NCBI RefSeq assembly: GCF_900142435.1 | Contig: NZ_LT670846.1 | Coordinates: 1 to 64,000 of the forward strand | Length of the DNA stretch: 64,000 bases | Source of the DNA: Thermocrinis minervae | GTDB lineage: Bacteria; Aquificota; Aquificia; Aquificales; Aquificaceae | Direction: 5' to 3' | Shown: one piece after another, positions 2 to 4,649 of the stretch | Numbering within the stretch: position 1 is the stretch's first letter | Layout of the letters: every line of letters begins with the position of its first letter | Translations under genes and position numbers: made by a program | Notes under the pieces: generated by a model | Database searches by the model: none | Told to the model about the DNA's origin: nothing | Seen by the model: only the letters and a program-made list of their open reading frames with translations

Positions 2-400
2 GGTCATAAAGAGGAGCTTCACCTAAACATAGCCCTTATCTCCACCTTTGTAGCTTTAACTGGTATAGCGTTGGCCTACATGGTTTTTGTCAGGAAAAGC
101 CCAGACCCTGAAAAACTCTACCAAGCCCTTAAGCCCTTACACACTACATTAAAAGAACAGTTCTTCACAGAAAAACTCTACCACAAAGTGCTGGCCGCAG
201 GTTATATGATGTACTCCAAACTCCTTTACCAAGTAGGTGACAAACTTTTTATAGATGGAGTCGTAAACGGTCTTTACCATATTGTCTCAAACCTTGGGCA
301 TACCTTTAAGCTAGTCCAATCTGGAAAGATAAACACTTACATGCTCTTTATGGCTGTTGGTTTGGCACTACTGTTACTTCTAATAATCTTTGGAGGGTAA
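2..400 (+). CDS. nuoL: NADH-quinone oxidoreductase subunit L, 3' end (partial)
   Basis: Open reading frame entering from the left edge, so only the last 132 residues are present. It holds membrane segments, a basic loop, and a final hydrophobic helix ending in a run of leucines and isoleucines. This is the usual C-terminal layout of NuoL, the antiporter-like, proton-pumping subunit at the far end of complex I with its long lateral helix and last transmembrane segment. The call rests mainly on context: nuoM starts 3 bases downstream and nuoN follows, the canonical L-M-N order. Confidence 0.85.
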   Translation, partial: GHKEELHLNIALISTFVALTGIALAYMVFVRKSPDPEKLYQALKPLHTTLKEQFFTEKLYHKVLAAGYMMYSKLLYQVGDKLFIDGVVNGLYHIVSNLGHTFKLVQSGKINTYMLFMAVGLALLLLLIIFGG

Positions 401-1876: not shown

Positions 1877-3229
1877 ATGGCTTTCCTTCCAGAAACTGTA
1901 CTGCTTGTAGGTGCTCTTCTTCTCTTCCTTTTGGAACTCTTCCTGGAAAGGAAAAGAGTCCTTTACGTTCTGGGTGGCATAGTGGCCTTAATGGCGGCTG
2001 TGTCTCTGTACTTTGCTCCTCATCCTGCTGATACCTTTTACGGCCTTTTTACCACATATCCGACTGCGAAGCTTTTTATATACATCTTGACAGCTTTAGC
2101 ACTGTTCTCTATGTATGCCTACTACGAGGAGAAAGGATCCCTTTATGGAGAGGTTTCTTACCTGACCCTTATGGCTTCCCTGGGTCTTTCCATACTAGTT
2201 TCGTCCAACAATCTGGGTCTAACCTTTCTATCTTTGGAGCTTTCTTCCATAACCCTGTATATACTTACGGGGACCTTCAGGGGAGATTATCCTTCTAAAG
2301 AGGGTGCTTACAAATACTTAGTGATGGGTGCTACCGGTACGTCTCTCTTTGCTCTTGGTAGCGCCTTCTACTACGGTGCAACAGGTAGCCTTTATCTTAC
2401 AAATTACACACAGGAGAACAGTTTTTTCACGTTGGCTACCTTTTTGCTTCTATCGGCGCTAGCTCTTAAGATATCCGCCGTTCCCTTCCACTTTTGGACT
2501 CCGGACGCTTATGAATCGGCTCCCACTCCAGTAACGGGTTTTATGGCAACAGTTCCTAAGCTTGCCGTCTACTTCTTCTTGGTAAAGCTCCTCTCCTACA
2601 CATCCCACGTAAAGATATGGATGTCAGTGGTGGTCATCCTTTCCATGCTTTCCATGCTTTACGCAAACTTTACAGCTTATGCGCAGAATTCTGTAAAGAG
2701 ACTTCTGGCTTATTCCTCTATAGCCCATGCAGGATACTTTTTAACCGGCCTTACAGTAAAAGATCCTATGCTGCAGAAAGCCCTGCTTTTCTACGTAATA
2801 GTTTACAGCTTTGCCACCTTGGGAGCCTTCACCGTTTTAGCTACCTTAGAAAAGCAGGAGAATTTCTCCCATCACTTTTTGGATTACGTGGGCCTTGGTA
2901 GGAAAAGACCTATCCTGGCAGCATTACTTACCCTTTTCTTGATGGCACTTATAGGCATACCCCCCATGGCTCTTTTCGTAGGAAAGCTTTCACTGTTTAT
3001 GGGTCTTGCAAACGTAAACCTTATGTGGCTTGCCTTGATCTTCGCTGTGGCCAGCGTGATATCTGCAGGGTACTACCTGAAGGTGGTCGTTTACATGTAC
3101 ATGAAAGAAGAAGGTCAAAAGATGCACAGCTTTAGACTTTCAGCTGGCGAATCCTTTGTCCTTACTGTCTGCGGTCTGTTGGTGCTTCTCCTGGGTATAC
3201 TACCACACTTAGTATATGAATTACTATGA
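1877..3229 (+). CDS. nuoN: NADH-quinone oxidoreductase subunit N
   Basis: 450-residue membrane protein and third antiporter-like pump of complex I. The conserved PFHFWTPDAYESAP segment near residues 203-217 and a helix 5 region with a conserved glutamate (SLELSSITLYIL) identify NuoN rather than NuoL or NuoM. It lies in the nuoL-M-N operon. Its TGA overlaps the ATG of the following moaC gene (ATGA), so molybdenum-cofactor and complex I genes are probably co-transcribed here. Confidence 0.95.
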   Translation: MAFLPETVLLVGALLLFLLELFLERKRVLYVLGGIVALMAAVSLYFAPHPADTFYGLFTTYPTAKLFIYILTALALFSMYAYYEEKGSLYGEVSYLTLMASLGLSILVSSNNLGLTFLSLELSSITLYILTGTFRGDYPSKEGAYKYLVMGATGTSLFALGSAFYYGATGSLYLTNYTQENSFFTLATFLLLSALALKISAVPFHFWTPDAYESAPTPVTGFMATVPKLAVYFFLVKLLSYTSHVKIWMSVVVILSMLSMLYANFTAYAQNSVKRLLAYSSIAHAGYFLTGLTVKDPMLQKALLFYVIVYSFATLGAFTVLATLEKQENFSHHFLDYVGLGRKRPILAALLTLFLMALIGIPPMALFVGKLSLFMGLANVNLMWLALIFAVASVISAGYYLKVVVYMYMKEEGQKMHSFRLSAGESFVLTVCGLLVLLLGILPHLVYELL

Positions 3230-3960
3230 GAACAGTAGACGTCAGCAATAAGCCCCCTACTCTAAGGATAGCCAGGGCTTACGGAAGGATAAGGTTAAAA
3301 ACCCAGACTGTACAGAAGATAATCCAAGGTCAAGTACCCAAAGGGGATGTGCTTTCAGCAAGCAAGCTGGCTGGTATAATGGCGTCAAAGCATACCCACC
3401 AGCTTTTACCCTTTTGCCATCCACTTAGCATAGACCACGTGGAGGTAGATCTAAAGATTAACGAAGACTCTATAGAAGTCTTTTCCTTCGTAAAAGGTGT
3501 TGCCAGGACTGGTTACGAGATGGAAGCTCTTACAGCTGTTAGCGTATCTCTACTCTGCATATACGACATGTGTAAGGGCCTAGACGACAGCATGGTGATA
3601 GAGGAGATAAAGCTGCTGGAGAAAAAGGGTGGTAAAAGCGACTGGAGGATGGAGAGCCTTAACATGTTTCTAGATGAAGAGCTTTCGGAGTTCTCGGGCA
3701 TAGTAGAAAGCAAGGGTCATAAACTTTCCGGCGAGGAAAAGGCTAATGTGGTGATCACCACAAAGTATGTGGACCTTGATGAGAGGATTCTTCCAGCCGA
3801 GACGGCTGTTAACCTAAGCCTCTTTTCCATAAACCCATCCACAAAAGGTGTAATAATCGGAAGGAAGAAGGGAAAGCTCTACATAGTACTTGATAAGTCT
3901 GCCTTTCTAGCCTTCTTCGAAAACTTTTCTCAACTGTTACCCTCATGGATACAAGACTAG
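3226..3960 (+). CDS. moaC: Cyclic pyranopterin monophosphate synthase (MoaC) with C-terminal extension
   Basis: Residues 1 to about 143 are a complete MoaC, which turns 3',8-cyclo-GTP into cyclic pyranopterin monophosphate in molybdenum cofactor synthesis. The KHTHQLLPFCHP motif lies near residues 54-65, the TGYEMEALTAVSV..YDMCKGLD block near 95-120, and a Gly-Lys-Ser-Asp loop near 137. Family members are usually about 160 residues. This one carries about 100 extra residues (144-244) that I do not recognise; they lack the MoaB/MogA signatures known from MoaC fusions. The start overlaps the nuoN stop by four bases, and the end overlaps the DNA glycosylase gene by 16 bases. Confidence 0.9.
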   Translation: MRTVDVSNKPPTLRIARAYGRIRLKTQTVQKIIQGQVPKGDVLSASKLAGIMASKHTHQLLPFCHPLSIDHVEVDLKINEDSIEVFSFVKGVARTGYEMEALTAVSVSLLCIYDMCKGLDDSMVIEEIKLLEKKGGKSDWRMESLNMFLDEELSEFSGIVESKGHKLSGEEKANVVITTKYVDLDERILPAETAVNLSLFSINPSTKGVIIGRKKGKLYIVLDKSAFLAFFENFSQLLPSWIQD

Positions 3961-4649
3961 AAGCAACTCTCAGGGCTTTAAAGGCTATTGGCTTTGATGT
4001 TATCTTTTTGGAAAGCTCTCAGGTATACAGACAGCCTAGGCAGGAACAGCACAGACAGACAGAAAATCTAGAAAAGCCTCAGACGGACTCAAAGAAAAAG
4101 CTCCTTGAAGAACTCTACAGAAGGATAGAGACAGAGGGAAAGTGCCCTAAGTTTGAAGGTTCAAGCGGCTATGTTTTCGGGGAAGGTAATCCAGACTCAC
4201 CGGTTGTGTTCGTAGGAGAAGCTCCAGGAGAAGAAGAGGACAAGCTAAAAAGACCCTTTGTAGGAAAGGCAGGACAGTATCTAAACCGAAAGCTTCAAGA
4301 AGTAGGTCTAAAGAGGGAGGACGTTTACATCACCAACGTGGTAAAATCCAGACCCCCTAACAACAGAAAACCCACTAAAGAAGAAATAGCTAGCTGTGTA
4401 GGCTACCTTAAGAAGGAGATTGAGATTATCAATCCAAAACTTATAGTATGCTTAGGGTCAACTGCCTTGGAAGGAATTATGGGCAAAAGCTATCCCATAA
4501 CCAAGTACAGGGGACAGGTCTTCCAGTACCCTTTCAATCCTAAGATAAAGGTCCTGCTCACTTACCATCCCGCTTACATACTAAGAAATCCACACGCCGA
4601 GAAGGAGTTTGTAGAAGACCTTAAGAAGATAAAGGAACTTTTAGGATGA
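3945..4649 (+). CDS. Family 4 uracil-DNA glycosylase, lacking two Fe-S ligands
   Basis: 234 residues. It removes uracil from DNA, an important repair in thermophiles where cytosine deaminates fast. Family 4 motifs are clear: GEAPGEEED (uracil pocket), [19 protein letters not shown] and the C-terminal HPAYILRNP with the catalytic-loop histidine. Known family-4 enzymes hold a 4Fe-4S cluster with four cysteines. Here only Cys67 and Cys151 remain; the expected second ligand is Phe70 and the third is Ser135 (KSRPP instead of KCRPP). The first 50 residues are a poorly conserved polar extension. The gene overlaps moaC upstream and murG downstream by 4 bases. Confidence 0.92.

Follow-up and report, generated by a model that had tools for sequence, protein, structure and literature searches.

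A clade of Aquificaceae carries a family-4-derived uracil-DNA glycosylase with glutamate and serine at two of the four cluster-ligand positions

An uninterrupted open reading frame of 234 amino acids on the forward strand (3945–4649) encodes the uracil-DNA glycosylase (UDG) of Thermocrinis minervae within the 64,000-nucleotide stretch of DNA analysed here (hereafter, the window). The coding region overlaps the end of an upstream MoaC-domain gene and the start of the downstream murG. The MoaC-like gene (3226–3960), which covers the UDG start, continues for roughly 108 residues after its MoaC domain (residues 4–136), and this extension gave no Pfam match. The neighbours of the window UDG, namely nuoN, moaC, murG and glmU, are absent from the flanks (0 to ~6 kb) of the homologous loci L002–L042; with no shared gene neighbourhood, the genomic context is uninformative on function.

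The protein scores 224.6 bits with the TIGR00758 profile (UDG_fam4; curated cut-off 125.3) and 131.5 bits with PF03167; a search of the whole 1,367,821-bp single-contig genome with the latter profile returned this one match. By sequence, the closest proteins of known structure are TM0511 (PDB code: 1vk2), the UDG of T. thermophilus (1ui0) and that of S. tokodaii (4zbx). The gene is thus a real UDG derived from family 4, as an earlier note on this DNA had proposed. In the sequence and in a MAFFT alignment, motif A is intact within residues 91–99 (4215–4241, forward strand), where residues 91–95 read GEAPG, as is motif B, HPAYILRN, at residues 208–215 (4566–4589, forward strand). The former fits the GE(A/G)PG given for family 4, and the His-Pro segment of the latter, HPAYILR, matches in kind the HPAAVL given for the family, although the letters differ (PMC10359453). 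Family-5 UDG (UDGb) would have GLAPA in place of GEAPG, and the match to 2d3y is far weaker (E 5.7e-09).

The literature treats family-4 UDGs as [4Fe-4S] enzymes (PMC5295032, PMC10359453), yet the four cysteine ligands of the family are incomplete in the window UDG, where the corresponding quartet is Glu64-Cys67-Ser135-Cys151. The register was taken from HMMER alignments to 1vk2, 1l9g, 1ui0 and 4zbx, in which residues ~57–79 are ungapped, and a separate MAFFT alignment, made from 188 loci together with the window UDG, gave the same result. In both, Glu64 (GAG, 4134–4136, all codons on the forward strand) aligns to the first cysteine of the CxxC pair, present in four-cysteine relatives, and Cys67 (TGC, 4143–4145) to the second, so that ligand position 2 is kept. 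Ser135 (TCC, 4347–4349) occupies position 3 and turns KCRPP into KSRPP, while Cys151 (TGT, 4395–4397) retains position 4. The spacings 64–67 and 135–151 (3 and 16 residues) equal the 13–16 and 84–100 counted in the aligned 1ui0 chain. The earlier note had rightly reported that two of the four ligands are missing and had placed Ser135 and Cys151 correctly, but it took Cys67 as the first ligand and Phe70 as the second. That register is rejected because both alignments contradict it: Phe70 (TTT, 4152–4154) aligns to His in 1vk2 and 1l9g, Met in 1ui0 and Trp in 4zbx, none of which is a ligand. The Glu-Cys-Ser-Cys site is therefore real and, as described below, clade-wide; it had been spotted correctly in outline and with the wrong register in detail. 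These data support a family-4-derived UDG that is unable to hold the four-cysteine [4Fe-4S] cluster. By sequence the protein descends from family 4 and probably acts as other members do, while in the strict sense it is no cluster-bearing family-4 UDG.

An AlphaFold2 model of the window UDG, calculated with 58 sequences, has a mean pLDDT of 90.2, and a model of a four-cysteine Aquificaceae relative (L037, 62% identity to the window UDG) from the same rows has a pLDDT of 93.2. The window model superposes on 1vk2 with a Z-score of 29.8 and an rmsd of 1.6 over 186 residues, and on 1ui0 with a Z-score of 28.0 and an rmsd of 1.4 over 179 residues; Foldseek was also run. The helix that precedes the ligand loop spans residues 46–64 in the window model and runs through the Glu64 site. 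In the L037 model the same helix stops at residue 53 (window 61) and is followed by a short helix at 60–63 (window 68–71). This comparison of two predictions suggests that the former cluster loop is folded differently in the window UDG.

The distribution of the substitutions was examined by seeking TIGR00758 in 112 genomes of the order Aquificales, of which 106 had a match; the loci were read for these. The Glu/Asp-Cys-Ser-Cys quartet is confined to a clade of Aquificaceae made up of the genera coded g1, g4, g7 and g9, and among named metagenome-assembled records it occurs in L033 and L036 (Hydrogenobacter sp.) and in L032, L034 and L035 (Thermocrinis sp.). Site 64 is Glu in 23 and Asp in one of the 24 readable loci from 25 clade genomes, Cys67 is found in 24/24 readable loci, and Ser135 and Cys151 are each found in 25/25. 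All four ligand cysteines are present in the 27 sister Aquificaceae loci compared (27/27), and also in the complete rows of genus g5 and of two other families of the order in the MAFFT alignment. The earlier note had proposed to check whether orthologues across Aquificales share the loss. They share it throughout one clade of Hydrogenobacter and Thermocrinis relatives, while the remaining Aquificaceae and the two further families read do not show it. The same substitutions in 25/25 clade loci from separate genomes, with intact reading frames under purifying selection and nothing found in favour of an artefact, reduce the probability of a sequencing or assembly error, or of gene decay, to practically nothing. 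Since the same quartet, with one Asp for Glu, occurs in all 25 clade loci as far as they are readable, sequencing reads with cysteine codons at these sites are not expected.

In a tree from which the ligand columns had been left out, made by a quick method without bootstrap, the variant rows form one group of 23 with an SH-aLRT of 99 inside the Aquificaceae rows. A single origin of Glu at position 1 and Ser at position 3, on the Hydrogenobacter/Thermocrinis stem, is thereby shown. Outside the clade, its closest relatives in this tree are the four-cysteine UDGs of other Aquificaceae (L002–L026, L028, L121). Clade and sister loci show fixed or nearly fixed differences at 9 of 185 sites: from sister to clade these are C64E, H70Y (Phe in the window UDG), S72G, Q75G, V76Y, C133V, C135S, V166L and C168V. 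Furthermore, site 73 is Arg in 27/27 sister loci and Ala or Ser in the clade. The changes all lie in the two ligand-bearing regions or in strand 166–168, with none in motif A or B. Over the window-aligned columns, the number of cysteines per protein falls from seven in 21/27 sister loci to three in 23/25 clade loci; the four-cysteine Aquificaceae enzymes thus differ from the window UDG in having all the ligand cysteines and about three more, with Val at the Tyr76 site and Arg at 73.

Cluster ligands have also been lost elsewhere. Among the best 30 loci from 144 genomes of Alphaproteobacteria (the class of L080), the quartet reads FCWC in 24, YCWC in three and LCWC in two, and one has no ligand cysteine at all, so that ligand loss is seen in 30/30. 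These family-4-like UDGs resemble the window protein in having lost ligands 1 and 3 and kept 2 and 4 (29/30), but they sit on a separate branch of the tree and have bulky hydrophobic residues at positions 1 and 3. The alphaproteobacterial loci seen to lack ligands are L192–L221, L046, L049, L062, L063, L067, L069 and L080; Pelagibacteraceae and related rows have lost further ligands. The named loci outside Aquificota include seven with Phe-Cys-Trp-Cys, four with Ile-Cys-Tyr-Tyr, single cases of CCSC, ARTC and DLRY, and two without any ligand cysteine. In Planctomycetota four cysteines are found in 45/50 loci, the rest being two AAVS, one CCSC, one LTWS and one ARTC. Independent losses in Alphaproteobacteria and Planctomycetota make the loss of cluster ligands a recurrent event. 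The view that it is unusual for the family holds for most lineages; it has to be qualified for Alphaproteobacteria, where loss is the rule among the best loci, and for Planctomycetota with their five exceptions. The Aquificaceae variant is nevertheless distinct in having two nearly invariant, ligand-capable residues at the lost positions, where other lineages mostly have hydrophobic ones.

The clade gene is under purifying selection. For eight clade pairs, dN/dS calculated by the NG86 method over the domain part is 0.030–0.097, with dS above 2 in two of the eight; two more pairs were saturated and dN/dS was not computable. A scan of 64 Aquificaceae genomes with PF03167 gave exactly one match in 25 of the 27 clade genomes and none in the other two, G049 (96% complete) and G054 (70%). 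If a UDG-fold enzyme excises uracil in these bacteria, it follows that it is the window-type UDG; the statement covers UDG-fold enzymes, endonuclease Q and exonuclease-type repair being other conceivable routes. Intact motifs A and B, purifying selection and the sole gene together support an active enzyme, insofar as activity can be read from sequence. Loss of uracil excision, leaving a uracil-DNA binder or another UDG-fold protein (UdgX-like or a pseudo-enzyme), would be in keeping with a vanished cofactor site, and the UdgX-family profile TIGR03914 does match, although with 159.1 against a cut-off of 189.95. However, UdgX (family 7) has GEQPG where the window UDG has GEAPG, its KRRIH loop is absent from the window protein in the alignment to UdgX, and the intact motifs, the single gene in 25/27 clade genomes and the low dN/dS (0.03–0.10) make such a protein very improbable.

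We consider it reasonably probable that the window gene encodes an active UDG, descended from four-cysteine family-4 ancestors, that no longer assembles the canonical [4Fe-4S] cluster. The replacement of the first ligand by Glu and of the third by Ser, once on the clade stem, was accompanied by changes around both ligands (sites 70, 72, 73, 75, 76, 133 and 168) and left the glycosylase core and both catalytic motifs in place. Uracil would be removed by the usual motif A and motif B chemistry, and the loop once anchored by the cluster may be held instead by direct side-chain contacts, candidates being a Glu64–Ser135 hydrogen bond and a Cys67–Cys151 contact, perhaps a disulfide. This pairing is a guess based on the fact that sites 1 and 3 changed together while 2 and 4 stayed. 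At high temperature the clade must presumably have offset any loss of stability. The Cys-to-Ser mutants of the family-4 UDGs from P. furiosus and A. fulgidus are said, in a report that cites others, to lose about 40% of activity, and that report's own data describe lower activity and lower thermostability for cluster mutants of a family-5 UDG (PMC5295032). As the archaeal mutants lose only about 40%, it appears from this source that a cluster-free enzyme can work. The alphaproteobacterial relatives, which also keep ligands 2 and 4 after losing 1 and 3, were counted in the same direction.

Several observations were counted against a cluster-free enzyme. Glu and Ser can ligate iron in other proteins and are invariant, or nearly so, in the clade, and ligand losses elsewhere mostly bring hydrophobic residues. 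Moreover, Glu64 is nearly invariant amid an otherwise variable stretch, with two residue types at site 64 in the clade and four to nine at the neighbouring sites 59–63 and 65–66; a position relieved of ligand duty is expected to drift. It is possible, though on balance unlikely, that a cluster or metal is still bound by Glu64-Cys67-Ser135-Cys151, be it Zn or a labile or retuned cluster of the [4Fe-4S] or [2Fe-2S] type, all four clade positions being ligand-capable and nearly invariant. We know of no [4Fe-4S] cluster that carries two non-cysteine ligands of the Glu/Ser kind, which weighs against such a site, as does the replacement of the adjacent conserved Arg73, Gln75, Cys133 and Cys168. In other lineages, too, Cys is kept at positions 2 and 4 where positions 1 and 3 are Phe and Trp; the two retained cysteines alone therefore do not mean metal. 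In favour of the mixed-ligand site, Glu, Asp, Ser and His are documented as Fe-S ligands in other proteins: according to a review (PMC11138216), RsrR uses Glu, His and two Cys, NsrR an Asp and LipA a Ser.

A second base-excision-repair enzyme of the clade also bears on the mixed-ligand site. The T. minervae genome encodes three HhH-GPD proteins (L189, L190 and L191), and L190, an endonuclease III (Nth), has the arrangement C-x6-H-x2-C-x5-C, with His at the second cluster cysteine and the other three cysteines kept. This gene lies outside the window (L190:1384–2010, corresponding to genome positions 450044–450670), contains the motif CTAQNPKHSKCPLVDIC and is matched by the clade loci L222–L244 and L270. 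In a survey covering 50 of the 64 Aquificaceae genomes, His was found in 24/24 loci of g1, g4, g6, g7 and g9, the g6 locus coming from a genus in which no UDG was found, and Cys in 26/26 other Aquificaceae loci; in family f2 the site is Cys in 30/30. The Cys-to-His replacement is one change on the tree. Among 30 Nth loci from other phyla none has His at that ligand, and four carry loop changes of a different kind. A second EndoIII paralogue of the clade has four cysteines in 20/20 loci read. A genome-wide loss of Fe-S clusters from DNA glycosylases is rejected, as L189 and L191 still have the four cysteines at their normal positions. Should the only UDG keep a Glu-Cys-Ser-Cys cluster and one endonuclease III a His-ligated one, the clade would possess two base-excision-repair enzymes with naturally retuned clusters, a combination that we regard as unlikely.

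A general coupling between ligand changes in UDG and Nth was also tested. In 30 diverse genomes, four had changes in both proteins, five in UDG only, none in Nth only and 21 in neither (Fisher p 0.0046 without correction for kinship, the independent pairs being too few for a test). Planctomycetota, where an Nth locus was read in 43 of the 50 genomes with a read UDG, gave three with both, two with UDG only, eight with Nth only and 30 with neither. The coupling thus failed there; a general tie is not supported and is kept as a lead only. Several Planctomycetota Nth homologues (L430, L431, L433–L435, L444 and L445) have C-terminal loops, like GREHCPARGHDLKACPICSWAA, in which the usual set of ligands is missing; these sequences may represent cluster-less or altered forms of EndoIII.

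Among the closest known proteins, TM0511 (1vk2/1l9g) and T. thermophilus UDG (1ui0/1ui1) share with the window UDG the fold (Z 28–30), 48–49% identity, motifs A and B, the KxRPP segment and ligands 2 and 4. They differ from it at ligands 1 and 3, where the window UDG has Glu and Ser, in the sequence after CxxC, and in the N-terminal helix and linker. A further parallel is the 'zincless finger' of NEIL1 (PMC9266487), a DNA glycosylase motif that has outlasted its metal ligands, but in another superfamily and with another metal. A literature search for a natural ligand-poor family-4 UDG found none; most subscription papers were outside its reach, and absence from print is not claimed.

The clusters of EndoIII, MutY and the A. 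fulgidus family-4 UDG have been proposed to be redox-active on DNA and to aid the search for damage (PMC9266487). A thermophile clade whose sole UDG is unable to bind the usual cluster, beside sister lineages able to do so, offers a natural comparison of the need for the cluster. If the clade enzymes equal the others in speed, specificity and stability, this enzyme can do without the cluster; if an unusual cluster is held, a new ligand set would be at hand. As a caution, Fe-S content should not be annotated from family membership.

Ahead of the glycosylase domain, the alignment and the model define an N-terminal segment of residues 1–22 (3945–4010, forward strand) with a predicted helix at 3–14. 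The linker that joins it to the domain is of low confidence, with residues 25–32 below a pLDDT of 50 (segment and linker together span 3945–4079). The helix segment is alike in the clade and in the four-cysteine Aquificaceae UDGs, and it might serve as a docking peptide.
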